A stretch of 64,000 bases of DNA from Amyelois transitella (Eukaryota; Arthropoda; Insecta; Lepidoptera; Pyralidae), in NCBI RefSeq assembly GCF_032362555.1, contig NC_083516.1, forward strand, positions 4,427,001-4,491,000. The letters are read 5' to 3'. The notes beneath the pieces are model-generated. The model saw only the letters and a program-made list of their open reading frames with translations, was not told the origin of the DNA and searched no databases. Position numbers and translations under genes: made by a program. Shown piece by piece: positions 2,205-63,888 of the stretch. Positions within the stretch are counted from its first letter, which is position 1; every line of letters begins with the position of its first letter.

Positions 2205-34489
<32,285 letters not shown>

Positions 34490-34492
<3 letters not shown>

Positions 34493-34567
34493 CACGAGCT
34501 TCCCGCGCCCAACAAGGGCGCGAAGATGTTCCGCCGCTCCAAGAGCGCCGCGCAGCTCATCAAGTGA
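34490..34567 (+). other. In-frame extension after the kinase stop codon (TAG, 24 codons, TGA)
   Basis: Directly after the TAG at 34490-34492, in the same frame, 24 sense codons run to a TGA at 34565-34567. The peptide ends FRRSKSAAQLIK and includes PAPNKGAKM. All but one of the 24 codons end in G or C, as do most codons of the exon before the stop, while the genome around is AT-rich. The first base after TAG is C, a context favoured in known insect readthrough. Either the stop is read through, or it is a recent nonsense allele or base error and the true protein ends here at 726 residues. An Arg/Lys/Ser-rich tail would be a plausible phosphorylation or membrane-contact site, but that is inference. 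Confidence 0.55.
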
Positions 34568-37500
34568 ACGCGCAAGTGAACGTCGACATGCAGTGGCCGA
34601 AAGGCGCCAATCACTTTAGCCGACACGCACACGGATAATTTAAAGTGTTTTAAGTGCTTCAAAAATAAAGTACTCGAGTGATAATTGAATTCGCTTTGAG
34701 GGGCTAAAGGGCGCGAATCACCTTTCGTAATACGCAAACAGATAATAAGAAGAAAAAGTGTAAGTACTTGAGTGAAAATTAAATCGCGCCGGATCGGTTA
34801 AATGACAGTGGTTATGAAGCGCTTCAAAGTATGTTTACCAAGTGTAGACGCAACTGATTTTGAACATGAGTTTGTAAATTGCGGTTTAAATTCGATAAGC
34901 GAACAATTTATGACCGCCAGATATATATTAAGTAATGAAGTGCGCGCCTATTTTTGCTCATGGTACAACAAAACCAGGTATCCTATTTTGTTGATGTTTC
35001 AAATCTATAAAAAGTAGTATCCAATTTAGAACATGACTAACTAATTAAATCAATTTCTTAGCTTAACAAATCTCGTTGATTCAAATAAGATTTTAATTGA
35101 TTAAAATCTTAACAAAAATACCTGGTAAGTAATGTCATGTTGCACCATGACGTAGCCAAAGTTTCCTAGGACCGGTCGCGTTTTGTTGCGCAATTAAAGC
35201 GATAGGATCGATCTTACGTATTCTAGTGATTTTCGATTGTGGACATGGTTTTGTAATTGTTTGCACCGATAGAATTTTGTAATTATTATTGTAATCTGGA
35301 TGTTGTATTTAACTCCGTAGAAGGTATTGTAAATTTAATGACTCAATTGAGTAGATAAGCATAGCAACTACCTATATATGTGTTTGTGCGATAGATCAAA
35401 TCAAAATATAAAATAAAATACAAAAATTGTAACTGACGTCGAAATTGGTAAAAATAATATTAGACAATTTTGACAAAAATTGAATTGTTTGTTGTGCGTA
35501 TTATAATAGAAGCTTCGACTTAATCGATTTATATTGTAATTAGAATTCTAGCACCTTGGTGACACAGCCGATTATTGCACACAGATTATATTTACATTAG
35601 TTTTGTTTTATGTTGTATCTGGTGGCTCTCTTGTGCAATCGCGTATGTTAAAAATAAAATAGTTCCTTTTTATAAAGTAATGGAACAAATTATAACATTA
35701 TTTATTATTAAATGGTACTTAATTATAAGTTTCACTTTTTATGTTCCGAACCAATTATGCGCAATAACCTTTATCGTTATACATATATATAATATAAGAA
35801 AAAAAAATAGAGACCGATATGAGTAGATCTAATGAAATCTCTTTTCATATTATATTTAGAGGCAATACTTTTCTAACAACATTTAGGTGTGGTGAATTAA
35901 TATAACAATAGATGTAAAGGCAATATTTAGAGAAATTTTAAAGCATGTTTAATGTCAGATGAATTTATGTCGGAATTTTTAATTTGGATATTTATTCCTA
36001 AACAGTTTATTGTGGCCTGGCCCAAATGACATTTTTGTATGTTGTGTATGTTTTATATGTAAAGCAATGCAACTTTATTTGAACGTAATCATTGTTTTGT
36101 CTGATGCAGATTTAGTTTTTCTTCTTTATGAAATGTTCCATTTGTTGCCATATTATAATAATAACAGTTTTATATTATATCATCAATTAACTATTTGTAT
36201 TTTATTCAAGTGAGCGTGAGCGTTGCAAGTCGAGATAGTAAATAACTAAGCAATAATAAAACTCATGAATGCGATGATGTAACAGCTAATGCTGTTGAGA
36301 TGGGAATATTTCTGTAATATACTTTAATATTTAGATATCTTGAGACCTTTGACGTAGTATAGTGCAACGCAGTAGCTCTTAGATAATGTATATAATATGG
36401 AAATCGGGTGATCACCGTAAGTATGTGTAATAAAGCCTAGATTAGTGATGTAAAGGCGTAGCTTCTATGATCGAAGTGAGGTATGAATTTAAGTTATATG
36501 AGTTATGTTTTATTATGATAAATATTTATTTACAGATGCCTAGGAGTTATGATTGAATTTAAATATCACTTTATTATATGCCTGGATTTATTGGTATACT
36601 ATCACGTTTCTATACCAAGTGTCAAGATACTTGTCAATAGAGTTTATTGACCTTTATTTATATTTATAGCTAAACTTCTTAGTACTTCCGTTTCAGTTGA
36701 ACTAAGTTTAGTGCAGTGTAATGAATAAATTTAAAGGTCTTTGTGCGTTTTTGACATGCTACTTACTCTTGGTATACTATTAGATGCTAGTCAATTGAAT
36801 TTTACTGCAATGGAGTCATTGTTATAATGGAATAAATTAAAAAAATAATGTAATAGTTTGAGCAGTATTATAGGTTAGTTATTTGTTTCTTGATAAAATC
36901 ATTCTGTCTAATGTGATATATCTTGTAAAGATTTCTTAGACGCGTCCGAAGCGTTAGTGCGTTTCTCTATTCAAGGGAACAAAATTTTGCTTGTGTACTT
37001 AGTATTCTTTTGCCTACTGATATTCCAAGTTTTTCTACTTATGTTTATCGTAGTTGCTGTAGACAATGAACGTATATTGATTCATTATTAACAGTTATAA
37101 ATTTTCTATAAAGCCTATATAAAAATCACTTTGTCGCCGATTAACTGGATAAGCATTTGAAAATGTTTTTGTACGCGAAAACGGCCAAAGTAGCGATGTT
37201 CAACATTCCGGTAAGTATGCCAAATTAGCTTACTATAGAAAATAATCGTAATGCATTTAAGAAGATTTTATTTATTTACTTAATATCCGTTCACATAATA
37301 TAATAAGCACAGTACTGTATTCAGGGTTCTTTTTTTATTTTATTTAAGATTGCTTAATAGGCTAAATTATAGGAGTTTCGCACACCAGGCTAGATCTGCA
37401 TCAGACAATGTTACGTACCTCTGTTAGTGAATATTTTTATTGTGAACCTACATTATATGTGTAGTAAATTGTTTATTTAATCATTCAATTGTTTTAATTT

Positions 37501-37824: not shown

Positions 37825-40800
37825 ATGATTAACGATATAATTTTCGTATTATCAATATTCACATGCATTTCTCTGGGAAGTTATTACAGAAAAATCGAGG
37901 ACTTGGAGACGAAACGAAACTATGGGGCGGGACTTGGAATTCTCACGGCTTGTCTGATTTGCGGGTACCAAATTTACCATTCAGTGTTAATTGTCTGGGG
38001 AAACGTTATTATTATTAAATGCGGTGATAAACGGTAAGCTACTCTTTGTTTTAAGACAAGGTTTAAGGCTTTTGAGTAATTTCTTCTTTGTGGTTGATTG
38101 AAACCTTGCTACTGCTTTCTTGATGATGAGGAAACAGCACATTAAAGAAACTAAAAGTGACCTGCATAATCTAAGCTCCTCTAAAGATTGCAAAGGTAAA
38201 CCGGCGTCGCTAGGTGTAAAACCGTGATCCGATTCGACGAATCTGTCTCTTCTCCAGGGAGGATGACTTTATAATGGCCGTAATGCAAAATTTACTGCCG
38301 CTGGCGGCAAGCTATTCCTATTTAAAATTAAAAATGTTTTTCTTATTCTAGTTATGTACATCAACTGAGCTTGGCTTACACATGGACATATCTCTTCTAC
38401 TTGTACTACAATGTTGTGACAACGCAATACGTGCTATGGCTAAACCAGGCTATGGCTCTTAAGCTGGTCGGTTTAGCTTTCGAAGTCAACCACCATGATA
38501 AAGCGACCAATCCTAACCGGCAAACTTTATCAAGCGCTAAGTTATCCGTGGGGGATAATGAAGTGATTACATCGGAGCCAACTGCTATTGATATTATAAC
38601 GTATACTTTCTTTTTCATCGGAATTCATAAAGGTAAGGAATAGGAAAGTCAAGTCGACTTAGCCCAGCGAATTATTTCCCCGACGACTTTGCATTGCGAC
38701 GGCTAGCACCGGTAATCGGACTTAAGTCCTTTAAGGTTCTCCTTTAAGATAAAGTCCTGCCTTAAATTATAATACATACATATGGTCACATCTATATCCC
38801 TTGCGGGGTAGACAGAGCCAACGAGTCTTGAAAACACTGAAAGGCCACGTTCAGCTATTTTTCTAAATGATAGAATTGAGATTCAAATAGTGACAGGTTG
38901 CTAATCCATTGCCTAAAAAAGAATCCCAAATTTGTATCCCTTAGTCGCCTTTTACGACATCCATGGGAAAGAGACGATGGAGTGATCCTATTCTTTTTTG
39001 TATTGGTGCCAGGAACCACACGGCACAAACATTAAAATGATTAAAATATACGTAATAACGAGTATCACAACTAAGCTAAACACAAAGTCATGAAACAGGC
39101 CTTAATGATAGATAGAAATTCGACAAAGTCCTCTGTTTCTGAAGATAAGTGGAAGTATTTACCTATCCAATAACAGAAGAACAGTGATGTTTTGTGTTCA
39201 ATAATATCTAATGGTACAGGCTTAGGATCATATTTTACCCTCGGTACAGGCTACCGAATGACAAAGACAAAAACTACCGACTAACTTGGCCTACCAGAAC
39301 CTCTATTACCCCTCAACATAGGTACCAAAATACAAATAGATACAGCTGCTATGACAATTTTTTAAATAGGTATATCTTTTTTTAACCAAGGTCCGTACTA
39401 CAGATGGAAAACATTCGAAGCTCATTTCAATCAACCTTTTGCTACATTGGGCGATTGCAGGGTTATAACTTTACAGAAACTGAAGAAGGCAGGCTTGTGT
39501 GCTTTGGGATACATATTATTAAGTTTGAGATATTCTCCCCAAGTAAGTGCTTAAACAAATAATCTAGCCTAGGTATATAAAATAATTGAATTGGTATTAT
39601 TTAGTGCTGAAATCGCCCCTAGCGTGTTTTTTGTTTAAATTGATAATCATCATATCCATAAACTGTAGGTACTACCTACATTTACGACGACATGGGCCTA
39701 CTTTAGTGCCAAAACTTATTGATTTTCAAACATTTTCAGATTTACGACGACAGCAGTTTTTATAGAAATCACAACACGGACTATCGCTTCGTATACAACA
39801 TTCCGCTCCTAGCGATGTTCTTCTTCTATAGTCAGATGCTCATGGCTCTTTGTACGGCAGTGTGCACGGAGGCCGGCTTTGGGATTTATCCGGCCAGGTG
39901 TACGCCTCTACCCGGACATGGTCCTTCGGAGCATCCGAGTTTTCTCAAGTTAGATTCCTTTTATATATAATTACTAGCAATCCGCCCCGGCTTCGCACGG
40001 GTGCAAAATTATAAATGTTATTATAAAAACCTTCCTCTTGAATCACTCTACCTGTTACAAAAAACCGCATCAAAATCCGTTGCGTAATTTTAAAGATTTA
40101 AGCATACAGACAAACAGACTAAACTAGCGACTTTGTTTTATACTATGTAGTGATAAGGCATACACCTGAAAGTGGCCTTCGAGTCATTGGATAAGGTTGG
40201 CTTAGTATACCCCGTGGAGAATAAATATTCTATACTATAACATATGTAAGTAGATAAATTAAGCGGACCCCATGCTCCGACACAGAGCGGGCAATTGCAA
40301 ACACGCTAACATTACAGAAAGAGAGGGATATTAGATTCCTTTGAACTCTTTTCCAGTTGTAGAGATTAGGTAAAATAATAAATCAAAACATGGAGATATT
40401 AGTCACTATCACATATTATTTTAATTTTAGCATCGCAACCCCGGAAATGGCATTGGCTGAAGAATATAATTTTGGAATGCTCAAATGTTTTGAGAACAAC
40501 AAATTACTGTTGGGTCCTAGGATGAAAGATACTTTGCGAAGTTGGGAAATGCCTACAATTTATTGGTTCTGGTTTTATGTGTACAAAAACATAACGAAAA
40601 CCAATAAGGAAATAAGGTAAGTATAATCAATTGGTTGTTTTCTCTGATCCTTTAAAAACATAAAAAGAATAATAAAGCAAAAATAGATAAGCAATTATTT
40701 TTGGAATTCCTACGGAGCAAGCCATGAAAAAGAGCTTAATTGAAAAGTAAATGAGACATGATCATTTTTTATGCTTTTTCATACAATATTGTATTGTGCA

Positions 40801-41327
40801 GTAAGTAACTCTATTCACTAAAATTTAAGGATGTCTTGATAGATATATTGTTTCTACCATTATTTTTAGGAGCGCTTGTTCATACCTTCTGTGGACGTTG
40901 TGGTGCGGGCCTGACCTACAGCATTTCATCTTGTCAGCCACGCTTTGGGTCTATGTTAATTTGGAGCAAGAATACAATGGTCTTTTCAATACTGGAGGGC
41001 AGGTAATAAAACATGCATACATTTACCAGGTAGGTACCCTTTATAGGGTAAACAGAGCCAACATCATTAAAGACATGGTGTGGTGTTGTTGTGGTTGTTG
41101 ACTTCGAAAATATTAATTCAGCTTATCTCTTCAAGATGAAACGCCTGCCCTGGGAGGTGGGATTCTCGATCATGCGCCTGCTGTGCATCATCTACCTATT
41201 TCCTTGCCTCGTAATCACGGACACGACTGTCTTCCTCAAATATTACAACTCTATATACTGGATATACCACTGGTTCCTGCTTGGTTCCATTGTATTCGCT
41301 ATTATTTTGCATAAAATGATCCGTTGA
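37825..41327 (+). CDS. MBOAT7-like membrane-bound O-acyltransferase homologue lacking both catalytic residues
   Basis: Exons: 37825-38033, 38352-38632, 39391-39542, 39740-39948, 40431-40616, 40870-41002, 41136-41327. The phase holds, giving 453 residues (human MBOAT7 472). The start MINDIIFVLSIF matches the family N-terminus in place; an acceptor at 37812 precedes it. Many hydrophobic segments indicate a multi-pass ER protein. Family marks are KLVGLAFEV, IGIHKGPYYRWKTF and YNFGMLKCFEN. MBOAT7 enzymes (fly farjavit) put arachidonoyl chains on lysophosphatidylinositol using an Asn and a His. Here the Asn position in R-Y-W-N-M-T reads RSWEMPT (Glu), and the His position in Y-W-H-G reads LWCGPD (Cys). 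Both exons are well formed and the frame is intact, so this looks like a maintained pseudoenzyme, not a decayed gene. The donor of exon 4 of the set (39949, GTTAGA) is weak. Introns carry a SINE and a Helitron-like piece. Confidence 0.85.
38772..39026 (-). repeat. SINE-like repeat family A, near full length
   Basis: It runs from the catacatatgg tail through ccttgcggggtagacagagc to aggaaccacacggcac, inside an intron of the MBOAT7-like gene. Confidence 0.88.
39974..40153 (-). mobile_element. Non-autonomous Helitron-like element
   Basis: On the minus strand it starts TCACTACATAGTATAAAAC and ends GGGGCGGATTGCTAG followed by T. Internal landmarks are ttacgcaacggattttgatg and gattcaagaggaagg. The TC start and CTAG|T end fit a Helitron. 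It sits in an intron of the MBOAT7-like gene, close to the weak donor at 39949. Confidence 0.5.
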
Positions 41328-42524: not shown

Positions 42525-45500
42525 CTAAGAGGTAATTTCTACAGCATTGATTTTCACAATAGGATTTACAATGACATTCTTGTTCTGTATCAATCTGAGT
42601 TCCCTAAGAGCTGGGGGAAGGGTTCCTGTGGGCTGAATTTGCCTGGCTGTATTAAACGTGTCTGTGACAATACTTTGCATGGTCGCAATCGTCTTTTCTA
42701 AGGTTGATTTGACGTCGTTGTTAGTTTTGTGCCACCAAGCCAGGAATAATGCAGCAAAAAGGTCACCTGTGCCAGTAAATGTGGACTCCACTTTTGGTAT
42801 TTCAATTTTGTAGCAGGATTCTGGAATATAACAATAACTAGCAGTTGATTTTTATGTTTGGGGACAGCGTGATAGTGATACTTTGCTTTGATTGGCTACT
42901 TGCCTGTACATTATTTTTGTAACTTTTTGTAAATTCTGTACTTTTTTGAACATATAGTCACGTCTTTATCCCTTGCGAGGAAGACAAAGCCAACAGTCTT
43001 GAAAAGATTGAAATGCCACGTTCAGCTTTATGGCTTAAGATGGAATTGAACAGAACCTATTTCCAATACAGAATTATTAAATCAAGCCAAATCTTACCAG
43101 GCGTGCTTGCCAGTCCAATCATCGTACTGCCATTTCCCAACTCGGTACTAGACAAAACGACAGTCTTCACTCCCTTCTCATGGAACGCCTTGGTGACCTT
43201 CAGTGCGTCCTCCACACTTTTCATCTTGAGACCTGTCAGCAGTTCTGCCTCAAACTGGTTAGGAGTGATTATGTCTGCCAGGGGAACTATTATATCTCTG
43301 TACACTGGTAATATGTCCTCTGGCACGTACATTCTGCCGTCATCTCCCATCACTGGGTCACACACTGTAAATTAAAAAGATAAAAAATATATAGGGAATG
43401 ACGTCAATACCAGAAATTCGGTCACAAGTGGACCCATCGTTTCTTGGTCATATACTGGCATGTTATACCACGGGTTTTTATCAAGAGGAGTGGTGAGGTA
43501 GAAAACGGGACTAACGGTAGGAGGATGATGAACTGCAAAAGATTTGATGCCAACCTTAAACAATACAGTATGAAAATAATAATGTGAGCCTTATTATCAC
43601 AATAATATACTTTAATTTTAAGCCTAGTCTCCTTTATCATTGCTTCATAAAATCAAGTTTTGTCGAAGCGAGCACATTGTGCAAGAATGTCACAAATATC
43701 AAATGTTTAATAATATTTGTTCAGCTTTATCAAATAATTACAGTTTATCACTCAAGGAAATTGTCAGAGATCTTTAGCGAAACAATCACATGTTTATCTA
43801 AATAGATAGACATACAAGAACTTATCAATGTTTCTGATTTCATGCTAATAATACTTGCGCTATTTATCATAAGTAAGTTTAAATTGAAATAGATATGTTT
43901 GCTGTAACCAATTTTCTTACTTTCGGTACTGTACTTCTTCAGTACTTTTAGACTATAAACTATTATGTCTGATTATTCCCAATACTTCCCTTTAGCACTA
44001 TCCCCAAAGTGACAACTGGGACTACCTGGGGCTGCCAGAGGTGAGACAATATAATTAGGACCAATATCAGGAGGAAGGAGAGTAAGAGTCATAGGAACGA
44101 GACATATTAGTTTCTAAGTGTTGCACATTATGGTAAGAAATTCAATGGGCAAAAAATTTAAACTTTTTATCTTGACTAGACTGAATGGCCATGTTCAGCT
44201 GTATGGCTGTGATTATGATATTGAAATTCAAATAGTGACAGGTTGTTAGCCCATTACTTAAATTTAACACACTTACCATAAACAAGATTGGGATTTTTCA
44301 ACCTCAATTTTTTTATTATTTCAGCAACTTGTTTCATAGAGTCTGCTGATCTTGAGTAGCCAGTTAGGAAGTGTGTGTAGAAGTGGACATCATTGGCAAT
44401 CAGACCTTCCACTATCTCCTCCATTTCTTCATTTTTGAGAACAGTACCCTTAATGGTTTTGTAGCCAGTGTGTGTTGAGAATTGTACAGTATTTATAGAG
44501 TCTACTTCAAAACCTAAAACCTGAAATTAAGAATTAATATAAAATACAATTTTCAATTAACCATGACTACACCAATATGTTAGGTACATTATTTATTAAC
44601 ATTGTGTTGTAGGCTGCACAAATTTCATATTCATGCTACCTATATTAGAAGAGATAGACCTATATTAATTATATATACATTTTAAAATATTTTTTATATT
44701 GATGCAAAATGATAACTTGTATTATTATGTGCATAGCAACTATTTATTGGAGTCTTGCTTGAGGCTTGATAACAAAAGATTGACTTATCAAGTTGTTTTT
44801 GATAAAATAGTAGGTACCTACATTGATTAGTTTTATTTAAAATAAGGAAGAGTCTGTCATCAATGTTTATATGAATTACCAGGGAGCTAGCATAGCATGC
44901 AATAAACTATCTCTGTTTCGCTTCTTATTAGATAATAACGCGCGTGCTATACTAGCTCCACAGAAGAATAAAATAGTAAAAAAAACAATTATGATTTTTC
45001 AGTAAAAAGAAAATAATCTATACTTAATAGGTAAAAATACACATAGTAATATTGTGCTGTGGGTTTGCTAATGCAAACACAAATATAGTTTAAACATCAA
45101 AAAGACATATGGGCTATAATTACATTTGAGTGAAGCAGTTGATGGAAGCTACTATTACATAGTTCTAATAAAAAAATGAAGACTTTTGGCCTTGGTTTAT
45201 AAATTAAAATAAACAAGTTGTTTGGCTCCAATGATTACAGCAATGGCCATGACACAATCTTGTGATGAAAAATAATTCACAAAACTGCAGAAGTTATTAA
45301 ATAAAAACATAATATTTATGTTATTGTTTATGTGTACATTAATTTTGTAAGTAGGAATGAGATACTAAAAAGTCACATAATTAAATTTAATTCTTCTTTA
45401 TTAATTTAAATTTAATTCTACTAAATACTATTAATATTGTAAAATTATGACTAGGTAGGTATCTACTTATCATAATTCAATTTAAAAACAATCTTTTAAT

Positions 45501-46678: not shown

Positions 46679-47450
46679 TTTCCTTTAAATTTGTACAGTA
46701 AGCTGCGTAAACCTGTAAAAACTTCAAATTCTAATTTCTGAACAAGAGAGGTAAAATAGTAGTAATAAGATGTGATGATAATACAAATTACTGGTAAGTA
46801 AATCTTAATTTAAAATACCTTTATGTGCGAAGTTAAATATATATAATTGCCAAGTCGGTGAGCTGTTATTTTCAAAGCTAAGGCGAACGAAAACTAAATG
46901 AATTCGATATATTTAATCAGCCTTGCTATGTATGGCCTTGAGAAGATGGCATGGCTAGGTAATGGATCTTCGTTATCATTTTGACAGTGACATGACTCAA
47001 GAAAAATGTAAAATGCCTAAGAACTTTGTCGTTCGAAATCAATATCTAGTCCAATTTGTTGCATTACAGAATTCAATAAGTTTAGGCAACGGTTATATAA
47101 ATAATGTTTATATAACCACAGACATGTAAATAAAGAGGTGTACAATAAGTGAAAGTTTCTCGAAATCGGGAGAGATAAATAATCTTATGTTATAAAAAGG
47201 AATAAACTTAAACAATTAACCATATCGATTTTGAACGAATACATAATGTTTGTGATCTAAGGTCATGATGATCTAAGTTTGTTATGAAGTAATTTAAAGG
47301 TAGGTAGTAGAAACACCGTAATTAAAATTAGTTTGTAGTACTTCTTATTTTGCGTTCAATAAGACGCTGTGTCACCGTGTTAATAAGTTTTTTTTTTAAA
47401 CATGATACTTGACGCGTCAATACAATGCAGTTTTGGATACCTACGATAAT
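46679..47450. other. Upstream region of pyridoxal kinase
   Basis: It must hold the kinase leader and promoter (minus strand). I see no clear core promoter motif. The DIRS-type element starts at 47451. Confidence 0.5.
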
Positions 47451-48046: not shown

Positions 48047-49054
48047 TTATGTTGTTATAGGTGAGAAAGAATCAATTAAAGTATTATTGACCACACGTAA
48101 ACGTCCTGGAATCTCTTTAAAGTAATGATTTAGGAAAGTATTCCTACTTCGCCAATTGCCTCTCTTTAATACTTCTTCGATATTGAATCGGTTACTGGTC
48201 CAAATGTCTGAGGCTACTGCAGCTCGGAAGCTACCTGCAGATGCGTCTATCCTGGCTTCCTTAAATACAGTTCTGATCCATCCTGCTATAATAGAGCGTG
48301 TTGCGCCTTTCACAGTGCCCCGTGTCGTGATGAACAAGTTATAGACATTTCCCGTTCTTCGTCGTGATTGTGACACTTCTATTAGTTTTCTAACCCAAAA
48401 GACCAGGTCCAAGTTTTTATCCTGTCGCGTCGCAGCGCCTAAGCTCTTTATCAACCATCCTGACTGCTGGTAGGTTGTTGAGTCCGTCTTAGATCCAAAG
48501 CTTGGATGGAATAAAATTCCTTCATCAGTATCTTCGAAAGCATCTTCTTTAATACTAAGAAGCGTTAGGTCGTGAACCCTGCGACCTGAGGCCAAAAGCA
48601 AGAGTGTGGAAGTATGTCTAGATACGGAGAAGAGATTATTTTCGTCGAAAGAATAATTTTTTAGGAAGTTCAACAGGTCGTCTATTTTCCACGATAAAGG
48701 TTTCTTTATAGGTGGCCTTTGAGCAAATATTCCTTTCAATGCATGCCTAACGAGCGGATGGGAGCTTAGATTATTAGATTCGTTCGGGTTCGAAAATGTG
48801 ACTATTACCGACTTATGCAAGGCAACCGTTCTGGCAGCTAGCTTCTCTTCTGTAAAAAGATGACACAAATATTTGGCTAGGTGTGGAGGACTTGGATTAT
48901 CTATAGAGATATTTTGCAAAGTTGCCCATTTTCTCCATTTTGACCATGCTGGTCTGTATGTTTTCAGCGTTGAGGGTCTCCATGATTTTTCCAAAACTTG
49001 TACCTCGTTTTCATTCCAATTTTCTAATTGACCGCTCCAGCCTGTATCTTCCAT
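48047..49054 (-). CDS. DIRS tyrosine recombinase
   Basis: The ATG at 49054-49052 (MEDTGWSGQLENW) opens a 335-residue protein ending at 48047. It overlaps the end of the reverse transcriptase frame by 31 bp, as is usual in DIRS elements. The frame is open further upstream to 50212, but that part only shadows the reverse transcriptase gene. The N-terminal SAM-like core-binding part includes WRPSTLKTYRPAWSKW. The catalytic part has the first Arg in LLLASGRRVHDL, the second-box Arg in GSFRAAVASDIW, and a terminal GNWRSRNTFLNHYF with the likely nucleophile Tyr. It would integrate a circular cDNA without making a long target duplication. No defect is seen. Confidence 0.9.
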   Translation of the reverse strand: MEDTGWSGQLENWNENEVQVLEKSWRPSTLKTYRPAWSKWRKWATLQNISIDNPSPPHLAKYLCHLFTEEKLAARTVALHKSVIVTFSNPNESNNLSSHPLVRHALKGIFAQRPPIKKPLSWKIDDLLNFLKNYSFDENNLFSVSRHTSTLLLLASGRRVHDLTLLSIKEDAFEDTDEGILFHPSFGSKTDSTTYQQSGWLIKSLGAATRQDKNLDLVFWVRKLIEVSQSRRRTGNVYNLFITTRGTVKGATRSIIAGWIRTVFKEARIDASAGSFRAAVASDIWTSNRFNIEEVLKRGNWRSRNTFLNHYFKEIPGRLRVVNNTLIDSFSPITT

Positions 49055-50704
49055 ACCACTAAATTTAATTTGTCTACTTCTGGAGGCGGGCGATTGGTTC
49101 GCAGATCGATTAGATTCGATTCCAAATTTTGAATTTTGAGGGGGGGTCTCAGAGCCCGTCTCTTTAGTTCTGGTTCCCAAAAAGCTCTCGGCCATGTTGG
49201 TGTTACCAGCAAGTATTGTCCCCGTGATGACTGTAAGTGGCGTAGAACTTGAGGAATCAACGCTGGTGGAGGGAATATCCAGCCTAACCTGTACTGCCAC
49301 GTCCTGCTGAAAGCGTTCGTAAACTGACTGTTCCCGTCTTTTAAGTCTTCGCTCACATAAGCTGGGACTATAGCGGATTTCTTCGAAGCAAATAGATCTA
49401 TTTCTGGTCGGCCTAGCTCTTGAAAAATTTTGGCCAGCGTTTCTCTTCTGAGGTGCCATTCCGGAAGGGACTTGGCTCTCGAGAGTCCGTCGGCTATTCC
49501 ATTGTAATGCCCGGGAATATACCGTGCTGTTAGGTGACACCGTCGTTTCTGGCAAATTTCCAATATACTCGCTGCTGTTTCTAGTAAGGTCAAAGATTTT
49601 GTGCCTCCTTGCTTCATAACGTAAGCTACGCTGGTGCGATTGTCGGTTTGCACGGTGACTGATTTCCCCTCTAGTTCTAGTTCTATTTGTCTCAAAACTT
49701 CGAGAATAGTCCAAAGTTCTTTCTTGTTGCTGTGCCAGTTTTGTTGACTGAGAGTCCACGTACCGCAGAGACGACGGCCGTTCACTACGGCCCCCCATCC
49801 CGTGTCTGCCGCATCCGTTGTTATGAATATTGACGGCGGAGGATAGTGAATTGGCGAGTGCTGATGTGCGTTTTCTAGCCACCAAGCAAGGTCCAGGAGT
49901 ACTGAGTCCCGCATCGCGAATTTCATGTGCCGCTTTCGATTTGGTAATCTTGACGACTCTCTTTGTAGCATTCTGCAATGTAACCGTCCCAGCGGAACCA
50001 CGAATGAAGCGAAGTTCAGTTTGCCGAGGATCACTTTGGCATCCAGCCAGCTCCAACGTTTTTCCTTGATCAGTTTTGAAAGGCTTAATTTTAATTTTTC
50101 GGTTTTCTCGATTCCTAGCCTTTTCTGGTTTAGCTCTGTGTCCCATGTTATACCTAGATATTCTACTTTCTTTGAGGGTACCGCTGTAGATTTTTGAAAG
50201 TTGATTTGCCAACCGAGATTTCTTAAGAATGTCACTGCAAAGTCCAATTGCTTGGACAGTATTTCCGGGTCCTTGTGAATCAGAAGAAAATCGTCGAGGT
50301 AGACGACGATTATGAGGCCTTTCTGTCTGAGTTCGTGAGCGATCCAGTTTGTAAGTTTTGCGAAAGCCGCCGGTGCACTGGACAGCCCGAATGGGAGGCA
50401 GGTCATTTGATATGTCCTGTCTTCGTATGCTAATGTAAGGAATCGACGATGACTTCTTGCAACTGGTACGTGAAAATATGCCTTTGATATGTCTATCTTC
50501 ATCATATAATCGTCCACATCCAAATGAGTCGGAACATTTTGATGACTTATAAGTCGAAACTTTGGTGCCATCACGTATTGATTCAATTTTTTCAGATTCA
50601 ATATGGGTCTGTTGGTTCCATCTGCCTTTTTCCTGAGGAAAAAGGTGGACAAAAACCCCGTCTCTTGGCTTGTTTCCTCTAAGGCTGATGACGTTAACAT
50701 CTCT
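49024..50704 (-). pseudogene. DIRS reverse transcriptase/RNase H, main (3') part, severed by the LINE
   Basis: The open frame reads MLTSSALEETSQETGFLSTF, then a reverse transcriptase with LRKKADGTNRPILNLKKLN, motif A MKIDISKAYFHVPV, PFGLSSAP and motif C VVYLDDFLLI. RNase H follows (ITTDAADTGWGAV, NNKKEL-like SNKKELWTI, VQTDNRTSVAYV, YIPGHYNGIADGLSR). A C-terminal part typical of DIRS comes next (EIDLFASKKSA, WIFPPPALIPQVL, VTPTWPRAFW). The N-terminal part of the same protein lies at 54875-55129, beyond the LINE. The catalytic residues are all present, so the only evident lesion is the insertion. Confidence 0.9.
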
Positions 50705-50965
50705 CTCTCTGGTAAAACCAGTCCGATATATGTGTCTGAATATATACCTGGGAGTAGGCGTAAATTATTTTTCAAGTGTCGGGAATTCGCAAAAAACTAT
50801 AATTTTAAGTTCTGCTGGTCGGCTAACAACAAAATTTACATTCGGAAGGACGAGCACTCAAAGATTATTAGGGTGGACTCCGAGGCTACTCTCGCTACTA
50901 TTCAGTCTCAATGACTAGCCTGCCTAATCATCAGTATTAGCGACGTCTTATCCTCTTTTACATAT

Positions 50966-51463
50966 ATGTCATATACTTTATTATATTATAGCAGTTGTAT
51001 CGCCTACGTATCAAATAAGTTACTAAGTTTTAATATTATTTTTCTTTACTATTATTTTTTATTTACACTCTTTAACACAAAAAGTATTCTAGCTGTTACT
51101 CATAAGTATGTAATTCCCTTACATACTTTATCGCATCCTCCCGTCTACTTGCAATTGCTGTTTGTGGTAACAAATTTTCATAACAATTTATTTCATACAT
51201 ACGTTAAGTACTTTGTTTCCTGGTTATGGATATCAGATATACTAAACCATAACTCGGGTCAGAAGTATCTTAACCCAATACACTTTAATATGAGCTTGTT
51301 TAATGTTACGTATCTAAAAACCCCGTTGTCGCACGTTTATCTTGTAGGTTCTCAATCTCGCATGCCTGTCGCGTTTACTGCTCGAAATACATCCGACTTC
51401 TTTGGTTCAGAAATTAATAGCTTCTTTTTTGTAAATTATTTATATTTATTATTATATGGTTAG
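50966..51463 (+). other. Hydrophobic open frame upstream of LINE ORF2, stop overlapping the next start
   Basis: The frame encodes 165 residues rich in Tyr, Phe and Leu, with no zinc knuckle, coiled coil or esterase motif. Its TAG (51461-51463) overlaps the ATG of ORF2 (51456) within ATGGTTAG. Such an overlap permits reinitiation in some LINEs, but the AT-rich composition makes a chance frame quite possible. Confidence 0.3.
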
Positions 51464-54395
51464 AAACGATTTTAGTACTATAACGTCTGAACTGGAGGAT
51501 GTTGGCATGTCGCGAGCCTTAATTTGTCAGCCCGACCAATGTGCTACTTTATTACGAAATAATAATAAAACTTTAACGGCATTTCATTTAAATATACGGA
51601 GTATCAACCGCAATTTTGATATGTTTAATGTTCTTTTAGCTGAAATGGAAATCACACCTGAAATCCTTATCTTTACTGAGTGTTGGTTATCGGTAGCACC
51701 ATTTTTACCAAATCTTGTTGGATACAAAACATATCAAACTAAAAATAATGAAAACCAAAATAGCGGGATCGTCATATATATTAAAACACATCTTGAGTGC
51801 AAAGTTTATGAACCGAGCTGCATAAAAGACGCTGGTTGCCTGGTGTGTGAGTTTGATAGGGAGTTTGCTTTAATAGCTATTTACCGCTCACCGTCACATC
51901 TGAATGCTGATATCTTTCTAAACAGCCTCAATGAGTTGCTTCAAACTCTAAAATCTTTTAAGATACTCAGCATGTTAGGAGATACAAATATAGATATAAC
52001 AAAAGATTCCATAGATGACAATAAAGACGACTATTTAGACATTCTTGCATTGCATGGTCTTTTGCCCACACAAACGTTTATCACCCGGGGTAAAAAATGT
52101 TTAGATCACACTATGTTAAGAAGTAAACTCCCATCTTCCACATTAGTGATAGACACCCAAATAACCGATCATTTACCTACAATTTTGTCAACACAGTTGA
52201 ATTATCAACACCAAAGCTCTCAATATGTACGATCAATTGTAAATTATAACGCAATAAATGCTGCAATATCTCAATTAGACTTTACACCTCTATTCTCTAC
52301 ACAAGACGTAAATGTTGCCGTTAGTTACCTCATCTCCACTATCTCTTACATTGTTAAACAAAATACTCATAAAGTTAAAATAACACGTAGTAAGAAACAC
52401 ATTAAGCCATGGGTAACGCCTGGTTTGATCCGATGTATAAGAAACCGTGACAAAATGCACAGTCAACTTAAGCGAGATCCAGAGAACATCATTTTGAAAG
52501 TGACATACGCGAGATACAGAAACTTTATTAACAAGCTCCTTAAAACTACTAAAATTAATTATCACAGAAAGATTTTACAAGATGCGAAAAATAATCCCAA
52601 GAATACATGGACGGCTATTAAAGAAATTTCAAATATTAATAAATCTGAATCCGGTGCACGACGGCTTCTAAAACTGCATTCAGACCCAAGAGTCTCGGTT
52701 AATAATGTAAATAATTTTTTTGTAAACATCGGTAAGGATTTGGCAGACAAAATACTCAGCAGACAGCCACCTAAAACCTCTAAAACCACTCAATATGAGA
52801 GCGACTCAATTTTCCTAACAGACGTCGATGAAGGCGAGATCGAACTTTTATTATTAAGCCTTCGTAGGGACAGTTCTGTTGGCTGGGATGGCATATCTGC
52901 GAGAATTCTGCAAGATTCACGACAAATCTTTATTCCGGTAGTTACACACATCTGCCAACTGGCTTTATCATCAGGAGTATTTCCAGCTGCCTTTAAGAGG
53001 GCAGTAGTTACTCCTGTCTTTAAGTCCGGGGATGAAGATGATGTCTCAAACTATCGACCTATATCTGTACTTTCTACTCTATCCAAAATACTAGAGAAAG
53101 TTCTAAATAAACGACTGGTCAACTACCTGGAATCCAAAAACATCATTGCGCATAACCAGTTTGGTTTTAGACGAGGCCTTAGTACAGAAGACGCTTTGCA
53201 TGGCTTACTGAATAATGTCATAAAATATTTAGATAACCAGCAAAGATGTCTCAGCGTGTTTCTCGATCTCTCGAAAGCATTCGACACCGTTTCCATCCCA
53301 CTTCTCTTAACAAAACTGGAATGCATTGGAATACGTGGCCTCCCTCTCTCCATATTTCGTGATTACCTTCTAAATCGTACACAATGTGTCAAAATAGACG
53401 ATATTGTAAGTGATCAACAGGAACTAGTTTTCGGCGTACCGCAGGGCTCAATTCTCGGTCCCACCCTCTTTTTAGTATATATTAACGACCTTTGTAAACT
53501 AAGCATACCTAATTGTCAAATATACACGTATGCAGATGACACAGCACTTGTTATAAACGGTCGGGATTGGAGTGAAGCCTTTTCAAATGCAGAATTAGCT
53601 CTGTCCACAGTTATGTCTTGGCTTGATTCAAATTTATTAACTCTAAACTTAGCCAAAAGCAACTATATAACCTTTGCTATAAATGCTTCTACCCTACCTT
53701 TAGATAATGAATTCTCACTTAAAGCTCATAAATGCCGAACATTCAATAATAACTCCCTGTGCACATGCACAGTCATATCAAGGACCACAACCGCTAAATA
53801 TCTTGGAATATATGTAGATCAATATCTTAAGTGGGACCAACATATTGCTTTTTTGAAAAACAAAGTAAGGAAACTCATTTATGTTTTCCGAAATTTAAAC
53901 TCTGTTGCCGATTTAAGTACCCTTAAGGTCGTATACTTTGCGCTATGCCAATCCATTCTAACGTACTGTATCGCAGTATGGGGTGGAGCTGTAAAAACAA
54001 CGCTGCTACCGCTTGAGCGAGCGCAAAGAGCGGTCCTTAAGGTTATGATCAAAAAGCCTTTTCGGTTCCCTACTCAACAACTATTTTCAGAGATATCAAT
54101 CATGACAGTCAGGCAACTATTTATCTCCATGTTGCTGCTTCGTAAGCACTCACAGTTGGTGTATGATCCGACACTACATACCCGAAAGCGTAGATGGGAC
54201 CTAGTATGTTCTACACCACCACATAGGACTGTTTTTGCTGCACGGCATTTTGAAGTAATTAGCTGTATTATGTATAATAAGGCCAATAAAATATTAAAAA
54301 TATACCCTTGCACAAAACGTGTTGTCAAATTCAAAATTAAAGAGTGGCTTTTGACATTAAATTACTCTGACACGGAAAATCTATTGCCTAAATAA
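51456..54395 (+). CDS. LINE ORF2: apurinic endonuclease and reverse transcriptase
   Basis: An intact 979-residue frame. The endonuclease domain covers about 35-235 (HLNIRSINRNFD, ILIFTECWLS, IAIYRSPS, LGDTNIDI, CLDHTML with terminal ITDHLP). The reverse transcriptase covers about 480-760 (AVVTPVFKSGDEDDVSNYRP, NQFGFRRGLST, VFLDLSKAFDTV, GVPQGSILGP and the catalytic YADDTALV near residue 690). The C-terminal part ends in a Cys-poor helical tail. Domain order and motifs place it in the CR1/Jockey superfamily. I cannot fix the family. With all catalytic motifs present and no stop, this copy may be competent, or was until recently. Confidence 0.93.
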   Translation: MVRNDFSTITSELEDVGMSRALICQPDQCATLLRNNNKTLTAFHLNIRSINRNFDMFNVLLAEMEITPEILIFTECWLSVAPFLPNLVGYKTYQTKNNENQNSGIVIYIKTHLECKVYEPSCIKDAGCLVCEFDREFALIAIYRSPSHLNADIFLNSLNELLQTLKSFKILSMLGDTNIDITKDSIDDNKDDYLDILALHGLLPTQTFITRGKKCLDHTMLRSKLPSSTLVIDTQITDHLPTILSTQLNYQHQSSQYVRSIVNYNAINAAISQLDFTPLFSTQDVNVAVSYLISTISYIVKQNTHKVKITRSKKHIKPWVTPGLIRCIRNRDKMHSQLKRDPENIILKVTYARYRNFINKLLKTTKINYHRKILQDAKNNPKNTWTAIKEISNINKSESGARRLLKLHSDPRVSVNNVNNFFVNIGKDLADKILSRQPPKTSKTTQYESDSIFLTDVDEGEIELLLLSLRRDSSVGWDGISARILQDSRQIFIPVVTHICQLALSSGVFPAAFKRAVVTPVFKSGDEDDVSNYRPISVLSTLSKILEKVLNKRLVNYLESKNIIAHNQFGFRRGLSTEDALHGLLNNVIKYLDNQQRCLSVFLDLSKAFDTVSIPLLLTKLECIGIRGLPLSIFRDYLLNRTQCVKIDDIVSDQQELVFGVPQGSILGPTLFLVYINDLCKLSIPNCQIYTYADDTALVINGRDWSEAFSNAELALSTVMSWLDSNLLTLNLAKSNYITFAINASTLPLDNEFSLKAHKCRTFNNNSLCTCTVISRTTTAKYLGIYVDQYLKWDQHIAFLKNKVRKLIYVFRNLNSVADLSTLKVVYFALCQSILTYCIAVWGGAVKTTLLPLERAQRAVLKVMIKKPFRFPTQQLFSEISIMTVRQLFISMLLLRKHSQLVYDPTLHTRKRRWDLVCSTPPHRTVFAARHFEVISCIMYNKANKILKIYPCTKRVVKFKIKEWLLTLNYSDTENLLPK

Positions 54396-54842
54396 TATCA
54401 ATTATTAATGAAATTTATTTAATATACTTAGTCCACGTATCTTTTCTTATTAATATATACGATGTTCACATCGTTGTACATAAATTGTTACCACAAGGCG
54501 GTCTAGAGCGTTATTGCAATAGTTTTAAGTTTATCTTGATTTATACATATTAATAAAAATCTATCCTTAGTTAACTATTGTGTAAACTCAAAATAATTCC
54601 CAGAATACAGATTCGTCTAGTTTGGGAATTATTAAATCAGTGTACATTTTACTTCAACTTAAATAAACAAACATCATTACATCCTACCGGATCTTCCGTG
54701 ATGCCTTCTACCAATCAAGATACAGGTTTATTCTTAGTTTGATGGTGGATGGCTGAGCGTTGGACCAGATTAGAAAATGTATTAACACCTTTTATATGAA
54801 CGATGTATGTACATAATATTTGCTGAAATGAGTCAATAAAAC

Positions 54843-54874
<32 letters not shown>

Positions 54875-55129
54875 CTCTTCTATCTCTTTTGTCATTTCCG
54901 AGGACGATTTTGTTTGGAAATTCGAGACGTTTACCTTTGACAAGCGAGTTAGAGGTGGTTTCTTTAGGAATGGGATTTTGTATCCTTTTATTATGTTTAA
55001 AATATTCGGTGGAGCCGAGCTCCAACGGTTTAAAAATTTTTGGAGCCGCCCCGCTTCGAATGTATCATTTTTTATCTCCACTCCCCCTTTTTCTTGAAAA
55101 AATATTTTGCTTTCTTGAAGAGTCTCCAC
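54875..55129 (-). pseudogene. DIRS reverse transcriptase, N-terminal part cut off by the LINE
   Basis: The frame from an ATG at 55129 overlaps the Gag-like frame by 65 bp. It contains the DIRS hallmark AGRLQKFLNRWSSAP, then IIKGYKIPFLKKPP and SSEMTKEIEE. The EIEE end meets the LINE T tract at 54874. The continuation (MLTSSALEE) is found at 50704 downward on the other side of the insertion, so both halves belong to one frame. Confidence 0.85.
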
Positions 55130-56753
55130 CTTTTTCTTTATTTGTCACGTTCCATTTAGCATTATTGTCATTATATTTCTTTTTCTTCCAGCTATTAGAG
55201 TCTATCCAGCCTGTTTTTGAGATGTCTCTTTTTCGAGATCTATCGTGTGTGTTATTAAATCTTTGATCACTATACCCGTATTTCTTTTTCGTGGGAAAGA
55301 ACTTGTGGACACCGCCTTGTTCTTTTACGGCATCTGTTAAGGCCTTATCTGCAAATAGATGCGTGTCCGAAGGGGGTATGTCGTGAAGTATTTGCCTGAG
55401 AACCCTGTTGGTTGGACGATATATTGCTCGTCGATGCTGTATAACCTCAGCACGACGTCCGCAAACATATTGAAGGAGATTGTCGGATACCTTTCGAAAT
55501 TCAGAGTCTGCAGCTAGGAATTCCTTGCCAACTTTATTTCTTTCATGGTTAGGCATTTTGTTTAGCAAGATTTGAAAGTGTTTTCTCTGTAGAAGCAGCC
55601 CATTTGTTATAGCTCCCAATGTCATGTCAGCACTCTCCAGAATTTTCACCGATTTGTATTGAGGTGTTGCTCCTGCAAGTACGTTGTTGGGTTTCAGAGA
55701 AGAAAAGGCTGGGGCAGCTTGAAACATTTTTTGTGTGTCGGCATATCTTATATTTTGCCAGCCTTCTTCCCCAAAACGTTGGCATATAATACCTTGCTTT
55801 AGAAGCTCTGGATTAGCTTTTGCAACTTTTGGTTCTTTTTCTGTGGTAAATGGCGAGAAATCGTAAGAGCGCTCCCTCTTCTTTGAAGGGGGCTCTTGGT
55901 TTGTAAGATCATCTAGCCTACGCTGCGTTTCTGCAATTTGTTGTCGTAGGGTCGACTCCTCAGAAGCTATACTTCTAGAACCAGAATTTGTAGAACAGGA
56001 GGCAATTTCCATATCTTCTACCGATTTTGTGCTATCTGTCATCGACTCAAACGACTCATTCGATATGTTGGTTTGGTTTGTGCTCTCACTGCCTCGAGTG
56101 AGGAGTTTCTTAATATTTTCATTTTGCTCTGAGGAAGCATTCAACAGTTTTCCAAACATTTCCATTTGCTTGTTTAGGACAGAAAGAAGGACGTCGTTAT
56201 TACTGCTAGAATTATCAGAGCGTTTAGAAGGTGAGCATTCCTCGGTAAGTGGGATAGGACTGGGTCTTTTCCGATTAGTAGGCGTATTGAACTCTTGTTG
56301 CGGTGAAACCGACAACCGTAACTGTGAAGATGCTCTGTCTCTATTAACCAGTTTAGGTTTCAGCTCTCGCACGGCGTTCATGAAGCGCTTGTAGTCTGGA
56401 GCGTGAATCTTTTCCATGATGCTGTGGGGAGCATATAATAGTGCTCTGCCTAGTGGCCATTGTAAAAGTTTACTTTTTATCTGTCGGAAGCGTCTTTCAG
56501 ACAATGAATTTGCAGATGGGTCGAAGGCTCTTGCTAAATCCACAATAGGTATAGCAAATCTTATTTTAGCATCTACTTTCTGCGTTATTTCATCTCCAAA
56601 GATATCTTGAAATGAAAGGTTACAGACTGCCCACGTTCGCCATTCAGAGGGAAAATGTTCATCGACGGCCGCGACTAGGGCTCGGTAGGAGTCAGCATCT
56701 TCGTCTTGACAGGGCATAGATGCTAGTTGCCCCATTGGTATGATCTCATCCAT
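55065..56753 (-). CDS. DIRS ORF1, Gag-like protein
   Basis: The ATG at 56753-56751 (MDEIIPMGQLASMP) opens a 562-residue frame. The N-terminal half is a globular region with ERRFRQIKSKLLQWPLGRAL. The middle is Ser/Asn-rich and low-complexity (about 155-290), with a basic SKKRERSYDFSPF motif. It is followed by a conserved-looking FQAAPAFSSLKPNNVLAGA and QILLNKMPNHERNKVGKEF segment. The C-terminus is very Lys/Arg-rich and would bind RNA. I recognise no zinc knuckle. Position before the reverse transcriptase frame is what makes this the structural protein of the element. The frame is complete. Confidence 0.8.
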   Translation of the reverse strand: MDEIIPMGQLASMPCQDEDADSYRALVAAVDEHFPSEWRTWAVCNLSFQDIFGDEITQKVDAKIRFAIPIVDLARAFDPSANSLSERRFRQIKSKLLQWPLGRALLYAPHSIMEKIHAPDYKRFMNAVRELKPKLVNRDRASSQLRLSVSPQQEFNTPTNRKRPSPIPLTEECSPSKRSDNSSSNNDVLLSVLNKQMEMFGKLLNASSEQNENIKKLLTRGSESTNQTNISNESFESMTDSTKSVEDMEIASCSTNSGSRSIASEESTLRQQIAETQRRLDDLTNQEPPSKKRERSYDFSPFTTEKEPKVAKANPELLKQGIICQRFGEEGWQNIRYADTQKMFQAAPAFSSLKPNNVLAGATPQYKSVKILESADMTLGAITNGLLLQRKHFQILLNKMPNHERNKVGKEFLAADSEFRKVSDNLLQYVCGRRAEVIQHRRAIYRPTNRVLRQILHDIPPSDTHLFADKALTDAVKEQGGVHKFFPTKKKYGYSDQRFNNTHDRSRKRDISKTGWIDSNSWKKKKYNDNNAKWNVTNKEKGGDSSRKQNIFSRKRGSGDKK

Positions 56754-56775
56754 GATCTGGAAGTGATGAGAAGTG

Positions 56776-57058
56776 AATTGATCAACAGACGTCGAATCGT
56801 AGGTCGAATAAATTGCTTCAAGTCGAGACAGTTACACCGTGATTCGACACGGCGACTCATTCGACGTCGCGTCGAGTCGTTTATGCGACAGTATGTCGAG
56901 TCAAGTATACGACGCCGTGTCGAGTAGATTAGGGCGACGTGTCGAGAAGCTTATTCTAACGTCGAGTTGATTTGGTATGTAACCAGTAGTAGGAGGCTGG
57001 CTCCTAAGTCGTCGCTGGACCAAAGGGTGCCGAGCGGAAATTAATACTTGACTCGACG
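56776..57058 (-). repeat. Cluster of GTCGA/TCGAC motifs in the DIRS 5' leader
   Basis: Within about 280 bp I count about eleven GTCGA or TCGAC pentamers. Several sit in a longer degenerate unit such as cgtGTCGAGtag, tatGTCGAGtcaa, cgtGTCGAGaag and acGTCGAGttg. They lie between the left ITR and the Gag start. Spacing is irregular, about 10-25 bases. Confidence 0.75.
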
Positions 57059-63431: not shown

Positions 63432-63888
63432 CTATGATTGACTATTGCTAGGTTTCTCCTGTGTTGTTTCATAAGCCTTTTCTAAAGTCTCCGTGATAAT
63501 CTTCATGTCATTCTCTATGCTTCTCGCCCAGTTTTCAACATCACCAATTTCCTTGAGGGCACTACTGAAGTTCTCCACAAGAGCAACCCACTGTTGTGTT
63601 TGTTTCGCAAAGTTTATTGCTCCTTGGTGCAATAGTTTAGCTTCAGCATCTAATTTCTTTTGGTTGAGATAAGCTTGGGCCACTCTGCAAAGAAAAAAAG
63701 GACTTGTGTTCCGAATAAAAAAAAAATCTCATAAAAACACATACTATATTTTTTGTATTTAAATCTGAATGTGTTGAATTGTATTTTTGTTAAATAAAGT
63801 TTCAAGTATACAAACCCCACATTGAGATGATCAACAAGGGCCTGTGTCAAATCATTTGCGGCTGCTATACATTCCTTGCGCTTTTGCT
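63432..63888 (-). CDS. Bloc1s1: BLOC-1 subunit 1 (GCN5L1), last two exons (partial)
   Basis: Minus-strand exons in coding order: 63888-63816 and 63684-63432, both GT-AG and in phase. The first begins with the last two bases of a codon, so at least one upstream exon lies beyond the window. Family motifs are [43 protein letters not shown] and [16 protein letters not shown]. The protein is a small helical subunit of the BLOC-1 and BORC complexes, which act in lysosome-related organelle formation and lysosome positioning. Human BLOC1S1 aligns along its whole length, and about the first 25 residues are missing here. The tail (EKPSNSQS) is variable. Confidence 0.95.

Follow-up and report, generated by a model that had tools for sequence, protein, structure and literature searches.

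Results

The MBOAT7-like locus and its surroundings

The window, i.e. the whole 64,000-nt stretch of DNA that was analysed, holds an MBOAT7-like gene of seven exons on the plus strand (37825-41327), embedded among other genes and retroelements (Table 1). All six introns have GT..AG borders, the phases match across them and the frame contains no internal stop, in agreement with the earlier note, which had described exons, splice sites and frame as intact. A processed pseudogene is ruled out by the six retained introns and the uninterrupted frame.

Table 1 Positions of genes, exons and catalytic codons in the window
Feature	Positions	Strand	Remarks
Protein kinase + PH domain gene	20739-34619		Pfam, single exons; presumably GRK2-type
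MBOAT7-like, exon 1	37825-38033	+	Begins at ATG; aligns to the N-terminal region of human MBOAT7
MBOAT7-like, exon 2	38352-38632	+	H-x-L-x-LA-x-T and LKLV-x-LA-x-EV matches to human MBOAT7
MBOAT7-like, exon 3	39391-39542	+	GP-x-x-R and QPF matches to human MBOAT7
MBOAT7-like, exon 4	39740-39948	+	Downstream donor GTTAGA; other donor GTGTAC after 39897, also in frame
MBOAT7-like, exon 5	40431-40616	+	Carries the former Asn321 position; encodes KDTLRSWEMPTIYWFWFYVYKNI
Codon GAA	40546-40548	+	Glu323 (453-aa model), opposite human Asn321
MBOAT7-like, exon 6	40870-41002	+	Carries the former WHG motif; encodes RSACSYLLWTLWCGPDLQHF
Codon TGC	40904-40906	+	Cys358 (453-aa model), opposite human His356
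MBOAT7-like, exon 7	41136-41327	+	Includes the stop codon; SIY and C-terminal region match human MBOAT7
Phos_pyr_kin/PfkB gene	42525-44526		Pfam, single exons; taken to be pyridoxal kinase
Cytochrome P450 gene	61714-62109		Pfam, single exon
GCN5L1 gene	63432-63728		Pfam, single exon

Two in-phase donors, separated by 51 bases, are available to exon 4 (window 39892-39950), and the gene models that use them encode 453 and 436 amino acids. To judge from the sequence, the exon probably ends at the downstream donor. The longer exon includes an extra loop with a GxGP match to human MBOAT7, and the phmmer score against human MBOAT7 is 109.9 bits for the 453-aa model but 94.8 bits for the 436-aa model; we therefore take the 453-aa form as the main product. 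Use of the upstream donor would result in the loss of a 17-residue loop adjoining the active-site exons. Upstream of exon 1, a short ATG frame (37163-37210; MFLYAKTAKVAMFNIP) ends in a GTAAGT donor and could be an additional 5' exon of the gene. Introns 2 and 6 contain two 79%-alike stretches (38795-38822 and 41035-41062), probably fragments of one dispersed repeat.

The neighbouring genes, which may serve as synteny markers, were identified by a Pfam scan of eight exons, two of which gave no match or were incompletely scanned. A BEL/Pao-type retrotransposon lies near the beginning of the window, with a long open frame (3127-7743) that contains DUF1759, Peptidase_A17 and DUF5641 domains (Pfam). 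It is flanked by two ORFs (2505-2885 and 7853-8266) with mostly the same sequence, which may lie in the long terminal repeats of the element. Reverse transcriptase/RNase H frames, DIRS-like by our own reading, extend over 48047-56831 on the minus strand (the Pfam scan covered 49027-50796), and a LINE-like reverse transcriptase ORF is located between parts of these frames on the plus strand (51435-54395).

The protein is related to MBOAT7

Human MBOAT7 (PDB code: 8erc_A) is the sole PDB match of the 453-aa model in a phmmer search up to E=10, with residues 11-445 of the query aligned to residues 12-444 of the chain at an E value of 1.2e-30 and with 28% identity (117 of 418 aligned positions). 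Such a near full-length match at this E value is not due to chance, and it supports the MBOAT7 relationship that the earlier note had claimed. Used as a query for comparison, human MBOAT7 reaches MBOAT5/LPCAT3 at 6e-12, while the insect protein gives no direct match to MBOAT5 up to E=10. Since the search with human MBOAT7 detects a neighbouring family, the result obtained with the insect protein points to MBOAT7. The hydropathy profiles of the insect and human proteins correlate with r=0.69 over the 418 aligned positions, circular shifts giving at most 0.25. A count of hydrophobic segments at a single threshold (9 versus 7 stretches, in differing places) proved too coarse for topology and was set aside.

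Both catalytic residues and their surroundings are altered

In the phmmer alignment with human MBOAT7 (8erc_A), which is ungapped across both catalytic positions, Asn321 is replaced by Glu and His356 by Cys, exactly as had been claimed. Each of the two replacements lies at least two base changes away from any Asn or His codon. The alteration is wider than the two residues singled out in the earlier note: the WHGLHPGY stretch of the human enzyme reads WCGPDLQH in the insect protein, and Gln325, Tyr341 and Ser352 are replaced by Ile, Lys and Trp, respectively, in addition to the change of Met349 to Tyr. Trp320, Arg318 and Tyr333 are kept.

The structure paper on human MBOAT7 (PMC10267149) proposes that His356 takes the proton from the sn-2 hydroxyl of lyso-PI, that Asn321 keeps both substrates in place and that His356 is polarised by the Ser352 backbone carbonyl; activity is reduced when Gln325, Tyr341 or Ser352 is mutated to alanine and strongly reduced when Trp320 is. 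Two of the six acyl-CoA contacts (Arg318 and Tyr333 out of Arg318, Gln325, Tyr333, Tyr341, Met349 and Ser352) are kept in the insect protein; the active MBOAT5 differs from MBOAT7 at each of the five that could be compared, having Asn at Gln325, Phe at Tyr333, Lys at Tyr341 (as in the insect protein) and Leu at both Met349 and Ser352. As these contacts vary among active enzymes, only the changes of Asn and His are decisive.

Of the acyl-pocket residues within the aligned range, two of seven are conserved (Phe241 and Trp320). None of the five lyso-PI residues (Arg87, Asn102, Phe205, Phe245, Val247) is identical: in the channel, Phe205 is replaced by Tyr, Phe245 by Ser and Val247 by Met, and the stretch from Arg87 to Asn102 is aligned with gaps. 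In the published human model, inositol is bound by Arg87 and Asn102 (PMC10267149), and because these headgroup residues are unmatched, albeit in a gapped stretch, the earlier suggestion that the protein binds lysophosphoinositide is weakened and finds little support. The disease position Glu253 is also lost, being Thr in one alignment and Leu in another. Opposite two prolines of TM6 (197 and 199 by our own reading of the structure paper) the insect protein has Lys and Gly, and the W-P-A-P stretch is not kept.

A gene under selection or a gene in decay

An MBOAT7 copy that has lately fallen out of use in a single lineage, its frame still open by chance, could show the same replacements, and two observations are in line with such recent decay. 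The Pfam MBOAT family (PF03062), which matches human MBOAT7 itself at 2.1e-34, gives no match to either form of the protein (436 or 453 aa) up to E=10. Among the positions identical between MBOAT7 and MBOAT5, the 436-aa model retains 35 of 88, and the catalytic core is kept no better than the remainder (6/16 at human 318-366 versus 29/72 elsewhere); no conserved patch reveals a retained function.

Decay is opposed by the intact state of every splice border and phase, and by the nature of the replacements themselves: neither can be reached by a single base change, and a gene that drifted long enough to acquire both would be expected to show stops and frameshifts as well. We simulated the neutral evolution of the coding sequence at eight distances, with 1,500 runs each. 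At 0.02 substitutions per site the runs had on average 1.25 stops, and a codon had a 0.0012 chance of carrying two or more base differences; at 0.1 substitutions per site these values were 5.65 and 0.024. The approximate joint probability that each catalytic codon has two or more changed bases while the frame stays open, calculated as a product of separate terms and assuming 0.1 indels per substitution, was below 7e-8 at all eight distances. This implies that the catalytic changes probably arose under selection on the frame and that later disuse, if any, was recent. Long neutral decay of the gene is thus unlikely; the simulation argues against long neutral drift only, and a recently disused gene would look identical.

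Codon usage also speaks against decay. The GC3 of the gene is 0.49 (223/453), compared with a GC content of 0.35 in the introns (p 1e-9, in a binomial test that takes the intron GC as known), and lies within the range of neighbouring exons: among ten hand-chosen stretches, the eight from neighbouring exons gave 0.37-0.58, and the other two, which are transposon ORFs, gave 0.31 and 0.33. Among the exons of the gene itself GC3 varies from 0.39 to 0.64. The simulation and the GC3 argument both draw on a single sequence. Taking both sides together, we regard recent decay in a single lineage as unlikely.

Search for further copies and relatives

No second MBOAT copy or alternative exon was found within the window. 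Human MBOAT7 was compared with it by tblastn, which yielded six rows up to E=10. Four lie in frame in the exons of the gene; the remaining two are weak (E 5.5 and 7.4) and their positions are not MBOAT-like. A six-frame motif scan found one WHG (46947-46955) and ten WN[MLIV][TSNQ] in the window, none of them inside 37825-41327. Contig collections of prokaryotes and viruses gave 51 and three pattern matches, respectively, with the insect protein, and the viral one gave two with human MBOAT7, none being confirmed; given the composition of these collections, the absence of relatives there says nothing about insects.

That no other copy was found in the window would also fit a gene that is the sole MBOAT7 orthologue of its lineage, the remodelling of PI by MBOAT7 having been lost or assumed by another acyltransferase. 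The 28% identity to human MBOAT7 is near the value of 32, apparently percent identity, tabulated for Drosophila frj (PMC10672513); identity alone therefore neither marks a special paralogue nor separates an orthologue from a paralogue. The evidence on the other side comes from moths: a Pectinophora 'lysophospholipid acyltransferase 7-like' has its best match in Helicoverpa at 83, again apparently percent identity (PMC6645563), and a Bombyx lysophospholipid acyltransferase 7 gene has been named (PMC9506100). Such genes suggest a well-conserved copy, although they may have altered sites or be the same gene as the one described here. We consider a sole orthologue improbable, slightly more so than decay.

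Two further explanations concern the active site itself. Both replacing residues are potentially catalytic, and Trp320, Arg318 and Tyr333 are kept, so that one may imagine a re-tooled site in which Cys358, close to Glu323, would carry a new chemistry such as thioester transfer or hydrolysis. Against this, neighbouring positions are altered too, S352W and Q325I among them as well as the residues that follow the histidine, and we consider the idea very improbable. In its more specific form, Cys358 and Glu323 would make up a new catalytic pair, and what was once a general-base acyltransferase would have become, in this insect lineage, an acyl carrier, transferase or thioesterase that depends on cysteine; we judge this just as improbable. 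We know of no precedent for a re-tooled active site in the MBOAT family. The restoration of both motifs by alternative exons, for which the two usable donors of exon 4 might speak, or through correction of a reading error is hardly credible, since tblastn gave no further MBOAT-like segment in the window, the motif scan revealed neither WHG nor WN[MLIV][TSNQ] inside 37825-41327 and four separate base changes would be required.

Discussion

The gene probably encodes a membrane pseudoenzyme derived from MBOAT7. The pseudoenzyme interpretation of the earlier note stands as regards the intact gene, the loss of the catalytic residues and the descent from MBOAT7, while its suggestion of lysophosphoinositide binding is weakened. 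The product would be a membrane protein with several transmembrane passes, probably located in the endoplasmic reticulum, whose fold would be inherited from the lysophosphatidylinositol acyltransferase MBOAT7 but whose acyl-transfer chemistry would be lost. With Cys and Glu at the catalytic sites and the residues after the histidine rewritten, the sequence leads us to expect no acyl transfer through the known mechanism. Because the gate residue Trp320 and the CoA contacts Arg318 and Tyr333 are retained, there is room for acyl-CoA or another lipid that might still sit in the tunnel without turnover, and we tentatively suggest a lipid-binding or regulatory pseudoenzyme. That the gene was retained for lysophosphoinositide binding or regulation would be a guess. 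Regulation of an active paralogue, another role named in the earlier note, is likewise conjectural; the structure paper describes MBOAT7 as monomeric (PMC10267149).

Compared with known systems, the protein is closest to MBOAT7/LPIAT1 (farjavit in Drosophila), with which it shares the near full-length match, the hydropathy profile, Trp320, Arg318, Tyr333, the GxGP loop and SIY, and from which it differs in the catalytic Asn and His, the WHGLHPGY stretch, Gln325, Tyr341, Ser352, Glu253 and the W-P-A-P of TM6. MBOAT5/LPCAT3 belongs to the same superfamily and is represented in the insect protein by the common positions counted above. The vertebrate MBOAT relative HHATL/GUP1, of the hedgehog acyltransferase branch, keeps the fold but is not known to have the catalytic histidine. 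The insect protein would resemble it in having an MBOAT fold without that histidine, but belongs to a different branch. MBOAT pseudoenzymes seem to be little described in the literature, in which our search found one paper that mentions MBOAT together with pseudoenzymes. The search found no paper joining HHATL with 'catalytic histidine', and the passages of PMC10213974 consulted make no mention of HHATL, 'pseudoenzyme' or 'inactive'.

In insects, farjavit is male-biased in the antennae of one butterfly (PMC11500719), and a 1985 title cited in PMC6824679 describes arachidonate as deficient in the PI of Drosophila heads. If the gene reflects decay in a single lineage, it would be an ordinary event. 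If, as we favour, it encodes a pseudoenzyme, and an inactive MBOAT7 is conserved in an insect group, it would provide a natural test of non-enzymatic roles for MBOAT tunnels and would bear on the remodelling of PI in insects.
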